This document shows positions 34,958 to 63,346 of a stretch of DNA of 64,000 bases, piece after piece. The position numbers and the translations under genes were made by a program. How positions within the stretch are numbered: the stretch's first letter is position 1; every line of letters starts with the position of its first letter. Source of the DNA: Spiribacter curvatus (GTDB taxonomy: Bacteria; Pseudomonadota; Gammaproteobacteria; Nitrococcales; Nitrococcaceae); the NCBI RefSeq assembly GCF_000485905.1, contig NC_022664.1:310001-374000 (forward strand), read 5' to 3'. The notes under the pieces were generated by a model. That model was not told the origin of the DNA. It did not search any database and saw nothing but the letters and a program-made list of their open reading frames with translations.

Positions 34958-35535
34958 GACTGTTCCTCGCCGAATGACCAGGTGCGGGTGATGATCAGTT
35001 CATCATTGCCCTGCAGCACCTCCGGCGGCACCGCAGGATAAGGGGCGGCGTCGCGCACCAGCGCGCGTGCCGCATCGCGAAGGGCCGAATGATTGCTGCC
35101 GCCGATGATCCGTATCCCGACGATCTGGCCGTCCGCATCCAGCGAAATGGCCATGATCACCCGACCGGTGATGCCGGCCTCAATCAGCTCGTGCGGATAT
35201 TCCCGATTGCCGATGGTCTCGGTATGCACGATCCAGTCGCGCAGATAGCGTGCTGTCGGTGCGTCATCCGGGGTGCCATCGACCGACCGTTGACGGGTGC
35301 TGGAGGTCGGTTCCGCCTGCCAGGACTCGGGTGCGGCACCGGTTATCAGGCGTAGCGATGAACGCCGGCTTGTTGAAGCGGTCCTGAGGGCCAGCTCGAG
35401 GGGTTCCCGCGTCTCGATCCGGGGTGAGGACAGGGCATTGGGTCCGAAGGGGCCGAAAATCACGATCAGGTGCACCAGTGCCGACAGCAATACCGCCATC
35501 ACCAGGCGATCACGGACCAGGGCGGCATCTTCCAT
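34954..35535 (-). CDS. TonB family protein
   Basis: 193 residues with an N-terminal helix (about 10-28), a disordered periplasmic linker and a C-terminal TonB-like domain (ITGRVIMAISLDADGQIVGIRIIGGSNHSALRDAA region). The proline-rich span of classical TonB is missing and no exbB/exbD are near. Equivalent to the TonB3-type gene beside gshB in Pseudomonas. Energy-transducing function is uncertain. Confidence 0.82.
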   Translation of the reverse strand: MEDAALVRDRLVMAVLLSALVHLIVIFGPFGPNALSSPRIETREPLELALRTASTSRRSSLRLITGAAPESWQAEPTSSTRQRSVDGTPDDAPTARYLRDWIVHTETIGNREYPHELIEAGITGRVIMAISLDADGQIVGIRIIGGSNHSALRDAARALVRDAAPYPAVPPEVLQGNDELIITRTWSFGEEQS

Positions 35536-35541
35536 GAATGA

Positions 35542-36498
35542 TCAGCGATCGCCGCTCAGCTGCCCCTCGATGGCGGTGAACAGCTCGCCGGCGATATTCG
35601 TGCCCTGCTGGGTGTCAATCTCGCGCACGCAGGTCGGCGAGGTGACGTTGACTTCGGTGAGGTAGCCCCCGATGACATCCAGACCGGCAAACAGGATCCC
35701 CTGCTCGATCAGCAGCGGTCGCACCTGCTCGACGATCCAGCGCTCGCGATCGGTCAGGGCGCGGGCAACGCCGCGACCACCGGCGGCCAGGTTGCCGCGG
35801 CTCTCGCCAGCGGCGGGCAGGCGAGCGAGTGCGAAGTCAACCGGTCGGCCATCAATCACCAGGATGCGCCGGTCACCGTCGCTGATCTCGGGCAGATAGC
35901 GCTGCGCCATGACGTACCGGGTGCCCCGTTCGGAGAGCTGCTCGATGATCACGCTGGTATTCGGATCGCCGGCCCGGACCACGAAGATGGCCTCGCCACC
36001 CATGCCGTGGAGCGGCTTGAGGACCGCCTGCCCCTGCGCGTGGATGAAGGCCTTGAGGGGTGCAGCTTTCATTTCCACGACGGTGGGCGTGCAGCACTGT
36101 GGGAAATGGGCGATGGCGAGTTTTTCCTGCACTTTGCGCAGCCCGGCGGGGCGGTTGATGACTCGGACGCCGGCGCGTTCCGCAACCTCAAGGATATGCG
36201 TTGCGTAGACAAAGGCGCTGTCCACCGGTGGGTCCTTGCGCATGAGCAGGGCATCGAGCTGGTCGAGGGGGGCTTCGCGGCGCTCGCCCAGGCTGAACCA
36301 GTCGTGATTGTCATCGCGCACCGTCAGCTCGGCCCCGTCCCCGTAGGCGACCCCGTCGCGCAGGGACAGGTCGGCCAGGGTGTAGTAGTGGACCGTCCAG
36401 CCGCGCCGCTGCGCTTCGAGCAGCATGGCGAGCGTGGTGTCCTTGTACGGGGTGATCCCTTCGATGGGATCCATGACAACGCCGAGGCGGTAGGGCAT
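35542..36498 (-). CDS. gshB: Glutathione synthetase
   Basis: 318-residue ATP-grasp ligase adding glycine to gamma-glutamylcysteine. Landmarks are GVVMDPIEGI, LMRKDPPVD, the ATP loop KPLHGMGGEAIFVV, and NVTSPTCVREID. ATG 36498 has GGAG 8 nt upstream; an in-frame GTG nine nt earlier lacks one. A TATACT -10-like box lies at 36525-36530 on the minus strand. Confidence 0.96.
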   Translation of the reverse strand: MPYRLGVVMDPIEGITPYKDTTLAMLLEAQRRGWTVHYYTLADLSLRDGVAYGDGAELTVRDDNHDWFSLGERREAPLDQLDALLMRKDPPVDSAFVYATHILEVAERAGVRVINRPAGLRKVQEKLAIAHFPQCCTPTVVEMKAAPLKAFIHAQGQAVLKPLHGMGGEAIFVVRAGDPNTSVIIEQLSERGTRYVMAQRYLPEISDGDRRILVIDGRPVDFALARLPAAGESRGNLAAGGRGVARALTDRERWIVEQVRPLLIEQGILFAGLDVIGGYLTEVNVTSPTCVREIDTQQGTNIAGELFTAIEGQLSGDR

Positions 36499-36560
36499 AG
36501 CGGGCACTCCTTTGGCAGGCGCGCAGTATAAGCCATCACTGCGAATGCGTCGCCCGCGCC

Positions 36561-36589
36561 TTGCTTACCTCTGTATCAAAGAATAATTT
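36561..36589 (+). promoter_or_regulatory. Predicted sigma-70 promoter for the fitA-like antitoxin
   Basis: TTGCTT (36561-36566) and TAATTT (36584-36589) with an exact 17-nt spacer, 31 nt before the chosen ATG. Local sequence is richer in AT than its surroundings. Confidence 0.5.
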
Positions 36590-36609
36590 GCACTCATTGA
36601 TCGCAAAAT
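36585..36609 (+). promoter_or_regulatory. Candidate autoregulatory operator (inverted repeat)
   Basis: AATTTGC (36585-36591) and GCAAAAT (36603-36609) form an imperfect inverted repeat, 6 of 7 positions, with an 11-nt spacer, overlapping the -10 box. Position and symmetry suit a ribbon-helix-helix repressor such as the FitA-like protein encoded next. Confidence 0.35.
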
Positions 36610-36619
36610 GGGATGTGTC

Positions 36620-36856
36620 ATGGCGGCAATGACAATTCGTCATCTGGATGAAGCACTGAAGCGCCGCTTGCGCATTCAGGCGGCTGTGCATGGTCGTTCC
36701 ATGGAGGATGAAGCCCGGGACATCCTGCGGGTTGCCCTGACCAGTGACGATGCCGAGGCGGGATCGCTCTATGAGGCAATCCGTCGCCGTATCGAACCGC
36801 TGGGTGGCGTGGAGCTGGATGATCCGCAGCGCGAGTCAGTCAGTTCAACGCCATGA
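36620..36856 (+). CDS. Orphan FitA/VapB-type ribbon-helix-helix antitoxin
   Basis: 78 residues: an N-terminal Arc/MetJ-type ribbon-helix-helix (MTIRHLDEALKRRLRIQAAVHGRSMEDEARDIL, cited in part) followed by a helical toxin-binding tail. FitA-like proteins normally pair with a PIN-domain RNase encoded immediately downstream with overlapping start. Here the ATGA overlap exists (36853-36856) but the following frame stops after 12 codons and runs into rsmE. Start could also be 36608 or 36629. Confidence 0.75.
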   Translation: MAAMTIRHLDEALKRRLRIQAAVHGRSMEDEARDILRVALTSDDAEAGSLYEAIRRRIEPLGGVELDDPQRESVSSTP

Positions 36857-36891
36857 TCGCCGGTCGGAGCGCTACCCCAGATCCCCGATAA
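36853..36891 (+). pseudogene. Possible remnant of the FitB/VapC toxin start
   Basis: ATG overlapping the antitoxin stop (ATGA) opens M-I then loses any PIN-domain similarity and ends at TAA after 12 codons ([12 protein letters not shown]). MI is how many PIN toxins begin, so this may be the start of a deleted toxin. The evidence is mostly positional. Confidence 0.3.
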
Positions 36892-37630
36892 CCGTCTGGA
36901 TGACCGCGAGCGCGGCGACTGGGGCGGTGTCGCTGCGCAGGATGCGCGGGCCCAGGCGGATGCGCTGCCAGCCGCACTCGGTGACGCGCTGGATTTCTTC
37001 GGGCGCCAGCCCGCCTTCGGGGCCGATCAGGGTCGCCAGCTCGGTGGTGGGTTCGAGGTCCTGCGCGGCGCGGTCACCGTCGGTGTCAAAGATGACGCCG
37101 GGCAGGCCGGACACGGTGGCCAGGGCCTCGTCCAGCGCGCAGGGCTTTTCCACCGGTGGAATGCGATTGCGGCCGCACTGCTCGCAGGCGGCCACCGCCA
37201 CGGCCTGCCAGTGGCGCTGCTTTTTGGCCCAGCGCTCGGCATCAAGCCGGACCACGCAGCGGGCGCTGATGACCGGGATGATGCGCGCAACGCCCAGCTC
37301 GGTGGCCTTCTGCATGGAGTAGTCCATGCGCTCACCTTTGCTGATGCCCTGCAGGAGGGTGACACCGACCGGAGCCTCGGCCTCGCGGGCCGAGAAGGCC
37401 TCGATCCGCGCCTGCGCGCGGCGCTTTTGCAGCGTCTCGATGCGGGCGGTGTATTCGCCACCGGTGCCATCAAAAAGCACAAGCCCGTCACCGCTTCGCA
37501 GTCGACGGGCCTGTATATGTCGGATCGCCGGGTCGGGGAGGTCGATGACCTCTCCGACCGGCGGAATGCCTGTTACATGCAGGCGGGTTGCGGGATCAGT
37601 AGCGATAGTGCTCGGGCTTGAACGGACCAT
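36872..37630 (-). CDS. rsmE: 16S rRNA (uracil-1498-N3)-methyltransferase
   Basis: 252-residue SPOUT methyltransferase modifying U1498 of 16S r[21 protein letters not shown] belongs to the N-terminal PUA-like part; [19 protein letters not shown] and [12 protein letters not shown]...[11 protein letters not shown] form the knot. The first usable ATG (37630) lies inside ahcY, giving a 35-nt overlap and about 17 extra N-terminal residues compared with relatives; no ribosome site is visible, so translational coupling to ahcY is likely. Confidence 0.9.
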
Positions 37631-39008
37631 CGACAGTGACACCGATATAATCGGCCTGGTCCTTACGAAGCGCGGTCAGCTGGGCGCCAATCTTTTCGAG
37701 GTGCAGGCGGGCCACTTCCTCGTCGAGGTCCTTCGGCAGCACGTAGACCTTCTTCTCGTAGCTGCCGTCGTTGTTGAACAGCGCCATCTGGGCGAGCACC
37801 TGGTTGGTGAAGCTCGCCGACATCACAAAGCTCGGATGACCGGTGGCGCAACCCAGGTTCATCAGACGGCCCTCGGCGAGCAGAATGATCTTCTTGCCGT
37901 CGGGGAAGCGGATGTGGTCGACCTGCGGCTTGATGTTCTCCCACTCATACTGACGCAGTCCGGCCACGTCGATCTCGTTGTCGAAGTGCCCGATGTTGCA
38001 GACGATGGCCTCGTTTTTCATGGCCTTCATGTGATCGTGGTTGATCACGTTGTAGTTGCCGGTGGCACTGCAGAAGATATCAGCCTTATCAGCCGCCTCT
38101 TCCATGGTGACCACGCGGTAGCCTTCCATCGCCGCCTGCAGCGCGCAGATCGGGTCGATCTCGGTGACCCAGACGCTGGCGCCCAGTGCCTTCAGGCTCT
38201 GTGCACAGCCCTTGCCGACGTCGCCGTAGCCGGCCACCACCGCGATCTTGCCGGCGATCATGACGTCGGTAGCGCGCTTGAGGCCGTCCACCAGTGACTC
38301 GCGGCAGCCATAGAGGTTGTCGAACTTGGTCTTGGTGACCGAATCGTTGACGTTCATGGCCGGGAAGGGCAGCTCGCCAGTCTGCTGCATTTCATACAGC
38401 CGCTTGGCACCGGTCGTGGTCTCTTCAGTCACGCCCTTGATCGCGGCCTGAGTGCGCGCATAGAAACCAGGATTTTCCTGCAGGCGCCGACGGATAGCGG
38501 CGAAAAGGGCGCGTTCCTCGTCGCTGTCCGGATTGTCCAGCACCGAGGGATCCTGTTCGGCCCGGGCCCCCAGCGTGACGGCCAGGGTGGCATCACCGCC
38601 GTCGTCGAGGATCATGTTCGGCTCGCCGTTGGGCCACTCGAGGATCCGGTGGGTGAACTCCCAGTAATCCTCCAGCGATTCACCCTTGTAGGCAAAGACC
38701 GGCGTGCCATTCTCAGCGATGGCCGCGGCGGCATGATCCTGAGTGGAGTAGATGTTGCAGCTCGCCCAGCGGCACTCGGCGCCCAGCGCCTCGAGGGTCT
38801 CGATCAGGACCGCCGTCTGAATGGTCATGTGGATCGATCCCGCCACGCGGGCGCCCTTCAGCGGTTTTTCACCGGCATACTTCTCGCGCAGGGCGATCAG
38901 GCCGGGCATTTCGGTTTCGGCGATATCCATTTCGCGACGGCCAAACGGGGCCAGGCCCGCGTCGGCGATGATCGATCCAGAAAGCTTAGTCTCAACGACA
39001 GCGTTCAT
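37596..39008 (-). CDS. ahcY: Adenosylhomocysteinase
   Basis: 470-residue NAD-dependent S-adenosylhomocysteine hydrolase, clearing the product inhibitor of all SAM methyltransferases. Conserved [39 protein letters not shown] (cited in part), the NAD fold [13 protein letters not shown] and C-terminal KPEHYRY are canonical. ATG 39008 follows GGAG; the longer frame covers the riboswitch and was rejected. Controlled by the upstream SAH riboswitch and next to metK, which makes SAM. Confidence 0.97.
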
Positions 39009-39029
39009 GGGTTGACTCCATGTGTTGCG

Positions 39030-39111
39030 GTTGAGCGCCGTTGTTCGTTGAAACCCCGGCATCGAGCCTCCCACCCTGTCATCTGGCGTGGTGCAGCGCT
39101 CCTCGATGCCC
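39030..39111 (-). ncRNA. S-adenosylhomocysteine (SAH) riboswitch
   Basis: In the 120-nt leader of ahcY, reading the minus strand, GGCATCGAG (plus 39102-39110) pairs with CTCGATGCC (39058-39066) as a 9-bp P1. Inside it is the SAH-class core GAGGAGCGCTGCA, then a variable arm and GGCTCG. The 3' element CGGCGCTCA (39032-39040) can pair with the GAGCGC of the core as the pseudoknot. Sequence, structure and gene context all match the SAH riboswitch, which switches ahcY on when SAH accumulates. The ATG is 21 nt downstream. Confidence 0.93.
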
Positions 39112-39128
39112 GGGCGATTGGGTTAGCG

Positions 39129-40289
39129 CTATAACCCGGCGGCGTCTCTCAGGCTGTCCGCCCGATCAGTGCGCTCCCAGGTGAACGTCTCTTCCTCGCG
39201 GCCGAAATGGCCGAAGCTTGCGGTGGGCTGATAGATGGGTCGAACCAGATCCAGCATCCGCAGAATTCCGTATGGGCGTAGATCGAAGTGCTCACGCACA
39301 AGTTCCACCAGCCGCGTCTCCGATATCTGTCCAGTGCCGAAGGTATCGATGGAGATCGACATCGGCTCGGCGACACCGATGGCATATGCCACCTGGATCT
39401 CGCATTTGTCCGCCAGCCCTGCCGCAACGATGTTCTTGGCAACATACCGGCAGGCATAGGCCGCGGACCGGTCGACCTTGGACGGATCCTTGCCCGAGAA
39501 CGCCCCGCCGCCGTGCCGGGCCATGCCGCCATAGGTGTCGACGATGATCTTGCGCCCGGTGAGCCCGCAGTCGCCGACGGGGCCGCCGATCACGAACTGA
39601 CCGGTCGGGTTGATGAAAAACCGCGTCCGGTCGCTGATCCACTCGGCGGGAATGACCGGTCGGATCACCTCTTCCATGATCGCCTCCCGCAGGTCGGCCT
39701 GCGAGACACTGTCGTCATGCTGGCTCGAGAGCACGATGGTATCCACCGCCACCGGGCGACCGTCCTCGTAGACAAAACTGACCTGCGATTTGGCGTCTGG
39801 CCGCAGCCAGGGCAGGACGCCACTGCGCCGCACGTTGCTGTGGCGCTTGACGAGACGATGGGCGTAGGTGATCGGTGCGGGCATGAGGACGTCGGTCTCG
39901 CGACAGGCATAACCGAACATCATGCCCTGGTCGCCGGCCCCCTGCTCCTCGGGCAGTTCGCGATCCACGCCCTGGTTGATGTCGGGGCTCTGCTTGCCGA
40001 TCGCGTTCAGCACCGCGCAGGTCGCGCCGTCGAATCCTACCTCGGCGCTGTTATAGCCGATATCGACGATGCGGCGACGGACCAGATCCTCCAGATCGAT
40101 CCAGGCCGACGTCGTGATCTCGCCGGCGACAATGACCATGCCCGTCTTGACCAGGGTCTCGCATGCGACCCGCGCCGCGGGATCGTCTTTGAGGATTGCA
40201 TCGAGGATGGCGTCGGAGATCTGGTCGGCGACTTTGTCCGGATGGCCTTCCGAGACCGATTCCGATGTGAAGAGGTACTGACTGCCCAT
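39129..40289 (-). CDS. metK: S-adenosylmethionine synthetase
   Basis: 386 residues; makes SAM from methionine and [31 protein letters not shown] and the second signature [19 protein letters not shown] are present. ATG 40289 from homology; AGGGAG lies about 13 nt upstream. Divergent from tkt. No SAM riboswitch was recognised in the 130-nt gap. Confidence 0.97.
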
Positions 40290-40419
40290 GCTTGGCCGTT
40301 CGCTCCCTGTGGTTCGAACACTGATTAGCCCAGAAGTGTACCGTTGGTTGCCTGCATGCGGGAAGTTCTGGAGAATTGAGGCCTTCCATCCATTGCCGCT
40401 GCGCCGGAGAAACCGCCCC

Positions 40420-42420
40420 ATGCCCACTCGCCGCGAACTCGCGAATGCCATCCGCGCCCTGTCCATGGACGCTGTTCAATCTGCCCAGTCCGGTCATCCG
40501 GGTGCCCCTATGGGAATGGCGGACATCGCAGAAGTCCTCTGGAATGACTACCTCCGGCATAATCCAGCCAATCCGCACTGGCCCAATCGCGATCGATTCG
40601 TGCTCTCCAACGGCCATGGCTCGATGCTCGTTTACTCGCTGCTGCATCTCAGTGGTTATGACGTGCCGATGGATGCCCTGCGGCATTTCCGACACCTCGG
40701 GTCGGGGACACCCGGGCACCCAGAGGTGGGCGACACGCCGGGTGTCGAGACCACAACGGGTCCGCTGGGACAGGGGCTTGCCAACGCGGTGGGCATGGCG
40801 CTGGCGGAGCATATCCTCGCCGGTCAGTTCAATCGCCCCGGGCACCCATTGGTTGACCATCACACCTACTGCTTCCTCGGCGACGGCTGCCTGATGGAGG
40901 GGATCTCCCACGAGGCCTGTTCGCTCGCCGGCACGCTGGGGCTGGGCAAACTGATCGCGGTTTACGACGATAACGGCATCTCCATCGATGGCAAGGTCCG
41001 GAACTGGTTTACCGATGACACGCCCGCCCGGTTCCGTGCTTATGGCTGGCATGTGGTTGAGGAAGTCGACGGTCATGATGCCGAGGCGGTTCGGGCCGCC
41101 ATCGAGACGGCCCGTGCGGTGACTGACCGGCCGTCGCTCATCTGTGCCAAGACCACGATCGGTTTTGGCGCGCCCAATGTCTGCGGGACCCACGGCGTTC
41201 ACGGCGCACCACTGGGCGATGAGGAAATACAGGCAAGCCGCGAGTTCCTCGGCTGGACCCACGCGCCATTTGAGATCCCGGACGCGATCTATGACCGCTG
41301 GGATGCCCGGGCCCGCGGTAACGCCGCCGAGGCGCAGTGGCGAGAGACGCTGGCCGCCTATCGTGAGGCGCATCCCGAGCTTGCCGCCGACTTCGAGCGC
41401 CGCATGGCGGGCGAGCTGCCAACGCATTTCGCTGAGCATGCCCAGGCGTTCATCGAGAAAGCCCAGGCGGAAGGTGGGAATGATGCGAGCCGCAAGCACT
41501 CGCAGGCGGTGCTCAATGGCTTCGGTCCGCATCTGCCCGAGCTCACCGGGGGATCCGCTGATCTGACGGGGTCCAACAACACCTGGTGGAAGGACTGCTC
41601 GGCGGTGAGCGCCGAGGACCCGGGCGGCAATTACCTGTCCTATGGCGTCCGCGAATTCGGCATGACCGCCATCATGAATGGGATGGCACTGCATGGCGGA
41701 CTCATCCCCTATGCCGGGACGTTCCTGGTGTTCTCCGACTACGCCCGCAATGCGGTTCGCATGGCGGCGTTGATGGGCGTGCGCAGCATCCTGGTCTACA
41801 GCCACGATTCCATCGGTCTGGGCGAGGATGGACCCACCCATCAGCCCATCGAGCAGCTCCCCAGCCTGCGACTCATCCCCAACCTTGATGTCTGGCGGCC
41901 CTGTGATCTGACCGAGACGGCGGTCGCCTGGCAGATGGCACTGACCCGCACCAACGGCCCGAGCGCCATGGCCCTGTCGCGCCAGAAGCTGCCCCACCAG
42001 CCGCGGCAGAATGACGGGATCGAGGGGATCCGCCGCGGCGGGTATATACTGCGCGAACCGGCGGTGAATCCGCAGGGTATCGTCATGGCGAGCGGCTCCG
42101 AGGTGGGGATGGCCGTCGAGGCCGCCGATGCACTCGAAGCGCGGGGCTACGCGATACGGGTGGTCTCGGTTCCATGCCTCGAGCGATTCCTCGCTCAGCC
42201 GACCGACTATCGCGAGACGGTCCTGCCGGCCGCGATTGGTGTCCGGGCCGCGGTCGAAGCGGCCGTCCCTGACAGCTGGCGGGCGCTGGTGGGCAACGAG
42301 GTAGGACTGGTCGGGCTCCGTGAGTTCGGCGCCTCAGCGCCTGGTGATACCGTTTATGAACATATGGGGCTGACCGCCGAAGCGGTGGTGAGTGCCCTTG
42401 AGCAGCAATTAGAGCAATAA
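40420..42420 (+). CDS. tkt: Transketolase
   Basis: 666-residue TPP enzyme of the pentose phosphate pathway. N-terminal [15 protein letters not shown], the TPP motif [19 protein letters not shown] ending near DDNGISIDG, and the pyrimidine-domain [16 protein letters not shown] are present. ATG 40420 with GGAGAAA upstream. Heads tkt-gap-pgk-pyk. Confidence 0.96.
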
Positions 42421-63030: not shown

Positions 63031-63104
63031 TGGGGGATCGTCTAGCGGTAGGACTACGGACTCTGAATCCGTCAACCCAGGTTCGAATCCTGGTCCCCCA
63101 GCCA
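63031..63104 (+). tRNA. tRNA-Gln (anticodon CTG)
   Basis: Acceptor TGGGGGA pairs with TCCCCCA (63094-63100); discriminator G and encoded CCA follow. Anticodon arm ACGGA-CTCTGAA-TCCGT has a 7-nt loop with CTG at positions 34-36, reading CAG. T arm is CCAGG-TTCGAAT-CCTGG. Terminator follows immediately. It lies 9 nt after rpsI. Confidence 0.97.
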
Positions 63105-63180
63105 TCCATAAAGGACCCCGCCCCCGGCGGGGTTTTTTATGGATAATTGAGAGCCAGGGTGCGAAGCTGGAAGGTTCGAC
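63086..63180 (+). repeat. 95-bp direct repeat, copy 1 (tRNA 3' end + terminator)
   Basis: Runs from the tRNA-Gln T-arm (AATCCTGGTCCCCCAGCCA) through the terminator to GGTTCGAC. It matches copy 2 at a fixed offset of 166 nt with one difference (G at 63161 against T at 63327). Confidence 0.9.
63105..63143 (+). terminator. Rho-independent terminator after tRNA-Gln
   Basis: ACCCCGCC (63115-63122) pairs with GGCGGGGT (63126-63133), loop CCC, followed by a six-T run (63133-63138); flanking TCCATAAA and TTTATGGA extend the stem. Strong and nearly symmetric. Confidence 0.88.
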
Positions 63181-63251
63181 TGCGACCGCGAGGGAGCAGA
63201 ACGACCGCGCACAGCGCGTGTCGGCCCGAAGGGCGAGGCCGCAGGCCGAGT
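63181..63251. other. Hairpin-rich spacer between the two 95-bp copies
   Basis: 71 nt, no gene. Three consecutive triloop hairpins: CGCGC-ACA-GCGCG (63206-63218), GCCC-GAA-GGGC (63224-63234) and GGCC-GCA-GGCC (63237-63247). Not a tRNA: no matching 5' half. Confidence 0.6.
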
Positions 63252-63346
63252 AATCCTGGTCCCCCAGCCATCCATAAAGGACCCCGCCCCCGGCGGGGTT
63301 TTTTATGGATAATTGAGAGCCAGGGTTCGAAGCTGGAAGGTTCGAC
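63252..63346 (+). repeat. 95-bp direct repeat, copy 2 (contains a 19-nt tRNA-Gln 3' fragment)
   Basis: The first 19 nt (63252-63270) duplicate the 3' end of tRNA-Gln including CCA, without the rest of the tRNA. The copy ends exactly before the AGGGAG ribosome-site-like sequence of the MoaD-like gene. Confidence 0.9.
63271..63309 (+). terminator. Second copy of the rho-independent terminator
   Basis: Identical hairpin: ACCCCGCC (63281-63288) / GGCGGGGT (63292-63299) and T run (63299-63304), within repeat copy 2. It lies between any upstream promoter and the MoaD-like gene. Confidence 0.85.

Follow-up and report, generated by a model that had tools for sequence, protein, structure and literature searches.

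A SAH riboswitch between metK and ahcY in Spiribacter curvatus and the rsmE gene that overlaps ahcY

Introduction

The gap between metK and ahcY in Spiribacter curvatus raises the question of whether it encodes a SAH riboswitch and whether the control exerted there reaches beyond ahcY to rsmE, the reading frame of which overlaps the 3′-end of ahcY. The initial annotation, made from the sequence alone, proposed a SAH riboswitch controlling ahcY and probably rsmE, and described as unusual a wiring in which SAH would induce a methyltransferase that itself makes SAH. SAH riboswitches upstream of ahcY were reportedly described by Wang and colleagues in 2008. The sequence analysed here, referred to as the window, is the whole 64,000 nucleotide stretch between positions 310,001 and 374,000 of contig NC_022664.1. 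The genus of the window is the Spiribacter lineage, from which 13 aptamers were compared.

Identification of the riboswitch and its neighbouring genes

An Infernal search (cmscan), which had been suggested as a check, compared all 4227 families of Rfam 15 with the 64-kb window and returned a match to the SAH riboswitch family RF01057. The match covered positions 1–78 of the 78 in the model and scored 49.5 bits against a gathering cut-off of 37 (E = 3.9e-06). It was the single RF01057 match in the 1.93-Mb genome and, with a genome-wide E-value of 2.8e-8, it is not a chance match. The aptamer was set between metK and ahcY (Table 1), 18 nt after the metK stop codon and 17 nt before the ahcY ATG. 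The 9-bp P1 (GGCATCGAG/CTCGATGCC), the core GAGGAGCGCTGCA and the pseudoknot strand, annotated as CGGCGCTCA (39040-39032), were all found as originally described; the span given for the element (39030-39111) was correct to a few bases and lacked the strand, which is minus. The core and the pseudoknot strand CAACGGCGCTC agreed with the Rfam consensus. In fold, core, pseudoknot and location the element was like the RF01057 riboswitches before ahcY in the SAH regulons set out by Leyn et al. 2014 (PMC4239095). Its Rfam match, position and conservation in the family agree that it is a genuine SAH riboswitch, a further member of an established class in a familiar setting.

Table 1. Coordinates of the features of the metK-ahcY-rsmE region in the window, and of SAH riboswitches in the loci of the metK-linked set
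Feature	Position	Strand	Evidence or remark
metK, methionine adenosyltransferase	39129..40289	-	TIGR01034 628.7 bits, cut-off 309.4
SAH riboswitch aptamer (RF01057)	39026..39110	-	cmscan, full-length model
P1 5′ strand GGCATCGAG	39102..39110	-	9-bp helix with 39066-39058
Conserved core GAGGAGCGCTGCA	39092..39104	-	Rfam alignment
5′ pseudoknot strand GAGCGC, within core	39101-39096	-	Rfam alignment
P2 hairpin CCAC.../...GTGG, upper part imperfect	39071..39091	-	Rfam alignment; MFE -8.0
P1 3′ strand CTCGATGCC	39058..39066	-	partner of 39110-39102
3′ pseudoknot strand CGGCGCTC	39033..39040	-	Rfam alignment
Possible CATGG/CCATG hairpin holding ahcY Shine-Dalgarno and ATG	39022-39006	-	sequence
ahcY Shine-Dalgarno GGAG	39016..39019	-	sequence
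ahcY, adenosylhomocysteinase, 470 aa	37596..39008	-	TIGR00936 594.7 bits, cut-off 497.6
rsmE, 16S rRNA (uracil(1498)-N(3))-methyltransferase, 252 aa	36872..37630	-	NF008692 273.6 bits, cut-off 196
gshB	36507-35542	-	beyond rsmE
SAH riboswitches, locus L218	160-242, 1440-1529		metK-linked set
SAH riboswitches, locus L139	1583-1661, 2895-2994		metK-linked set
SAH riboswitch, locus L217	1553-1625		metK-linked set
SAH riboswitch, locus L107	4559-4630	-	metK-linked set
SAH riboswitch, locus L057	4503-4577	-	metK-linked set

The identities originally given to ahcY and rsmE held, both proteins scoring above the cut-offs of their NCBIfam models. RsmE also matched PF04452 and PF20260 and was encoded by a single-copy gene (one TIGR00046 match in the genome). 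Between rsmE and gshB, an ORF on the plus strand (36608-36856) encoded an 82-aa protein with a match to FitA-like ribbon-helix-helix antitoxins (PF22513, 61.7 bits).

Conservation of the aptamer among relatives

RF01057 was matched in 20 of the 23 family genomes, 36 of 54 of the order and 154 of 369 in the class sample. All 20 family matches sat directly 5′ of ahcY in the order metK-aptamer-ahcY, and in 99 of the 114 SAH riboswitch-ahcY loci of the gene-order survey described below metK was no more than 500 nt upstream. Over the 20 family loci the four inner pairs of P1 were invariant; the next two positions varied, with four pair types each, and formed standard pairs in 20/20; the outer three pairs were standard in 17, 16 and 14 loci going outward. 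Among those 62 of the 120 surveyed loci that had the exact core, the two varying positions paired in 61 and 59 loci and the outer three in 46, 38 and 41. The commonest form of the 3′ pseudoknot strand was recovered by pattern search in 89 of the 120 loci.

The ahcY leader and the predicted direction of control

By analogy with the known class, a rise in SAH would close P1 and the pseudoknot of the aptamer, ahcY expression would go up and SAH would be cleared. The most likely form of this control is at translation of ahcY, on a common metK-ahcY-rsmE transcript. Three observations favour this: the 18-nt spacing between metK and the aptamer; the result of a sigma-70-type consensus scan of 36400-40600, in which no promoter was better than chance; and the result of a terminator scan of the leader, in which no intrinsic-terminator-like site was found on the minus strand. 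The promoter scan did return one sigma-70-like site at the 5′-end of ahcY (38995-38968, minus strand, 9/12), for which shuffled sequences gave 1.0. A separate rsmE promoter inside ahcY, raised in the initial annotation as an argument against joint control, is represented by this one site at chance level, in a scan that covers the sigma-70 type only. Terminator-like matches on the minus strand were seen inside ahcY at 38480-38468 and 38095-38081.

The possible hairpin around the ahcY Shine-Dalgarno sequence had the same CATGG/CCATG arms in most of the genus and was absent from two genomes (G001 and G002). When the sequence was folded freely or with the aptamer imposed, in a model that leaves out the pseudoknot energy, no ON switch was reproduced. 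In the window the probability that the Shine-Dalgarno sequence is unpaired was 0.42 with the aptamer imposed and 0.43 when folded freely; among 18 family rows, imposing the aptamer raised this probability by >0.1 in one and lowered it by >0.1 in six, and accessibility changed by +0.04 on average over 32 other loci. The folding model thus speaks against a simple ON switch, although with the pseudoknot energy left out a switch is still compatible with this result.

Predicted pairing between the pseudoknot strand and ahcY codons 2-7 had an energy of -12.0 kcal/mol in 12 of 13 genus rows and beat 95% of synonymous shuffles in eight rows. Across 74 other loci no trend towards this pairing was found (mean z +0.64; 1/74 <0.05). 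L038 entered this comparison with a wrong ahcY start. In a synonymous-site comparison of the genus that left out L039, which carries an insertion, all 12 aligned sequences had GCT, a rare codon, at position 3 of ahcY (GCT made up 28 of the 489 Ala codons there, those 12 included). The invariant run at codons 2-4 (three codons) was surpassed by a run of four at codon 229. An anti-pseudoknot pairing with codons 2-7 may be considered a weak lead at the level of the genus only.

The ahcY-rsmE junction

The 35-nt overlap between rsmE and ahcY given in the initial annotation holds for the rsmE ATG at 37630; an alternative GTG start at 37642 would extend the overlap to 47 nt and the protein to 256 aa. 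The same annotation had rsmE without a ribosome site of its own, which is right to the extent that there is no good site: a weak Shine-Dalgarno match is present, with a duplex energy of -3.0 kcal/mol at ATG 37630 compared to -5.9 kcal/mol for ahcY by the same method.

The junction was contained in 11 genus loci, and in every one of them the rsmE frame was open into ahcY. The rsmE ATG was found at -35 in nine of these, with AAG in its place in G013 and G009. A further relative, L148, also had AAG at -35, with in-frame TTG/GTG codons at -38, -47 and -50, such that the ATG was absent from 3 of 12 genus junctions. The sole ATG/GTG/TTG codon of G013 that keeps the conserved N-terminal RL(F/H)V motif lies 149 nt upstream of the end of ahcY, and in G009 a GTG 71 nt upstream of this end keeps it. 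Homologues of RsmE would normally start at about the ahcY stop codon, judging from position 4 of the profile, which aligned with residue 19 of the 256-aa form; the rsmE start would therefore be an extension into ahcY. In G008, which belongs to a sister genus, the first rsmE start codons were approximately 160 and 180 nt past ahcY, and the gap contained a hairpin of -26.5 kcal/mol with a T run behind it, resembling a terminator (L030, about 1512-1700 nt from the aptamer start). Loss of this gap in the Spiribacter lineage is the likely history of the junction.

The AhcY Asp/Asn codon that supplies the rsmE ATG ended in T in all nine sequences with Asp or Asn at this position. Before Gly in the genus loci, GAT accounted for 50 of 123 Asp codons and AAT for 9 of 17 Asn codons, with those nine sequences included in the counts. 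As the genomes are related, this is only suggestive of selection for the rsmE ATG. An AhcY-RsmE frameshift fusion was set aside, as visual inspection of the TAC TGA junction revealed no slippery site.

Given the poor ribosome site of rsmE and the reach of its frame into ahcY, ribosomes translating ahcY probably feed rsmE by translational coupling; expression of rsmE would in that case track that of ahcY and respond, to a small or large degree, to SAH. What is new here is small and consists of the extension of the rsmE frame into ahcY in this genus and the missing ATG at some of its junctions. The overlap and the uncertain rsmE start are the only part of the locus that might reward study; with so tight an overlap, the genus is convenient for testing whether a riboswitch on one gene sets the dose of the next gene via coupling.

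Distribution of the ahcY-rsmE linkage

Gene order was surveyed in 120 loci, comprising 20 from the family, 16 others from the order and 84 hand-picked among the class matches listed, mostly one per family. Six loci in which the aptamer was not directly before ahcY were set aside, leaving 114, and a further 14 loci that had no rsmE and ended <3 kb past ahcY were dropped, leaving 100 assessable loci. Genes were named by tblastn, the queries being proteins of the window plus ORFs from L062, L095 and L096; distant copies may have escaped this search. Pfam supported the L062 metF, L062 rsmE and L095 metH queries; the ‘bioA’ query was supported as a class-III aminotransferase only, and the name bioA for this gene in the surveyed loci is tentative.

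Downstream of a SAH riboswitch-ahcY pair, rsmE was found on the same strand in 42 of the 100 assessable loci and in 31 of 89 outside the genus, under a length filter that spared rsmE-bearing loci; with the filter applied to every locus these counts were 40/98 and 30/88. In the 42 same-strand loci rsmE followed metF (20 loci), metF and a bioA-like gene (9) or ahcY directly (13, of which 11 were from the genus). A crude scan found terminator-like hairpins in the gaps of seven of the 42. In the remaining assessable loci rsmE was convergent (11) or was not found within about 3 kb (47).

A control set was assembled from 80 genomes with no detected riboswitch, of which 65 had ahcY over the cut-off and 59 of those also RsmE; the absence of a riboswitch here refers to a strictly filtered search, in which weak matches can be missed. 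Within 3.1 kb downstream of ahcY on the same strand, rsmE was present in 20 of these 59 genomes, in six of them within 200 nt (G146 was counted by the C-terminal piece of a split ahcY). In this sample the linkage is thus equally frequent where no riboswitch was detected, and the ahcY-rsmE neighbourhood does not depend on the riboswitch.

RsmE (COG1385) is listed in the SAH riboswitch regulon of Moraxellaceae by Leyn et al. 2014 (PMC4239095), so that in both cases RsmE is in an ahcY operon under a SAH riboswitch. The Spiribacter-lineage rsmE differs from the rsmE of that regulon description (PMC4239095) in overlapping ahcY directly, whereas in the other 31 same-strand loci metF (20), metF and a bioA-like gene (9) or nothing (2) stood between the two. 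In the Comamonadaceae SAH regulons of the same source, COG1189, a putative SAM-dependent rRNA methyltransferase, is likewise under a SAH riboswitch, but it belongs to a different protein family. A keyword search returned no other literature on a link between SAH riboswitches and rsmE; this is weak evidence of absence, since PMC4239095, in which the link is worded otherwise, escaped the search too. With rsmE downstream in 42 of 100 SAH-ahcY loci and the Moraxellaceae case already published in PMC4239095, the wiring cannot be called unusual. The rsmE link is known and recurrent, and the finding is sound and largely ordinary: a standard SAH riboswitch with a recurrent ahcY-rsmE link, now placed in the Spiribacter lineage.

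Proposed control of ahcY and rsmE

Taken with the gene order and the overlap, the aptamer in the metK-ahcY gap probably raises ahcY expression with SAH, acting at the translational level on a metK-ahcY-rsmE transcript, with rsmE fed by coupling. The terminator-like matches inside ahcY and the missing rsmE ATG at some genus junctions count against this reading. That control also reaches rsmE, as first annotated, is plausible given how the two genes overlap, how weak the rsmE ribosome site is and that no promoter exceeded chance; such an extension would involve both co-transcription and coupling.

It is possible, though rather unlikely, that the riboswitch governs ahcY only and that rsmE is a passive neighbour, expressed from a weak promoter inside ahcY or by constitutive read-through, with no useful effect of SAH. 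The placement of rsmE need not mean SAH control, since the gene is as often near ahcY without a detected riboswitch (20/59 genomes) as with one outside the genus (31/89 loci, or 30/88 under the uniform filter), and this frequency argues against reading the placement as the sign of a special SAH circuit. A passive rsmE would also fit the terminator-like hairpin that separates the two genes in the sister genus; in the Spiribacter lineage, however, neither gap nor hairpin remains, the frame of rsmE extends into ahcY and its ribosome site is weak. RsmE introduces one methylation per 16S rRNA, which is probably a small share of SAH flux, and the argument that SAH induces a SAH-making methyltransferase as feedback is weak.

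A stronger version of the coupling is doubtful. Here a deletion would have taken the gap, the terminator and the rsmE start region, RsmE in this genus would be made only by ribosomes fresh from ahcY, 16S rRNA methylation would be hard-wired to the SAH switch and, where the ATG was lost, ribosomes may re-initiate close to the ahcY stop on a non-standard codon.

Nucleotides beside P2 and the predicted ligand

SAH contacts are named as G15, C16, A29 and C46 in the structural description of PMC7057144, where C16 and A29 touch SAH in the crystal structure. The letters beside P2 could be parsed by a flank pattern in 87 of the 120 loci (the other 33 were left unparsed): A-A...C-C or G-A...C-C was found in 52 of the 87, and C-C in 55. 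The window departs from the A-A / C-C letters of the Rfam consensus at these positions, having A-C...G-G as do 12 of the 13 genus aptamers (A-T...A-G in the other). Compared to the RF01057 class, the genus therefore has C-G (or U-A) and A.G beside P2, A.C and A.C being commonest elsewhere. The A-A / C-C letters were not taken as class-defining because they are not universal.

These letters bear on whether the aptamer is a relict or altered form that no longer binds SAH well, which we consider very unlikely. None of the 13 genus aptamers has the commonest letters, their scores (38.7-55.1 bits) are below those of many relatives (order maximum 73.5), and P2 of the window is imperfect, with two model pairs non-standard in the Rfam alignment where most family loci fold a fuller hairpin. 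Against this, the core and pseudoknot letters are intact and the change at the inner P2-flank position in the genus gives a Watson-Crick pair. That position was A.C in most of the 87 parsed loci and otherwise G-U, G-C, C-G, A-U or U-A, and so looks like a base pair. The outer position was A.G in the window and, outside the genus, in G008, G108 and G159. Under the numbering assumed here, this A.G presumably adjoins the SAH-touching C16 and A29, and G15, C16, A29 and C46 are all present in the window aptamer if that numbering holds, which further argues against a relict.

A SAM-binding or SAM/SAH riboswitch, which would suit the adjoining metK and the SAM/SAH riboswitches that control metK in the Rhodobacterales regulons of PMC4239095, is most improbable and was rejected, as RF01057 alone reached its cut-off in 35400-40500; the only further match at E ≤ 1 belonged to an unrelated family and fell below threshold.

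The methionine cycle and other riboswitch positions

The usual second gene after ahcY is metF. In contrast to SAH riboswitch-ahcY loci of the known kind, metF was not found downstream of ahcY in any of the 18 family loci extending past ahcY. Searching the S. curvatus genome with MTHFR models returned one weak, atypical protein (L040 1279-2181, minus strand), which scored 18.9 bits with TIGR00676 (cut-off 293.7), 30.6 with PF02219 and 29.8 with PF19345 (mycobacterial type). Across the family, PF02219 was matched only weakly, in 20 of 23 genomes and at 52.8 bits at best. The S. curvatus genome also contained a 1318-aa frame with a S-methyl_trans domain, as in MetH.

SAH riboswitches directly 5′ of metK were observed in five genomes of three families (Table 1). 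Two of these genomes (G126 and G356) had two SAH riboswitches each, one before metK and one before ahcY, and a third genome of one metK-linked family (G301, locus L216) had the riboswitch before ahcY as usual. According to Leyn et al. 2014, metK is outside the control of SAH riboswitches (PMC4239095). A SAH riboswitch was also found ahead of metH-like genes in L095, L134 and L140, the metH-like gene of L095 being backed by Pfam; MetH is listed as a SAH regulon member in PMC4239095. Elsewhere in the window, a RtT RNA (RF00391, 45.7 bits, cut-off 45) was located at 63138-63270 on the plus strand, just 3′ of a tRNA (63031-63101).
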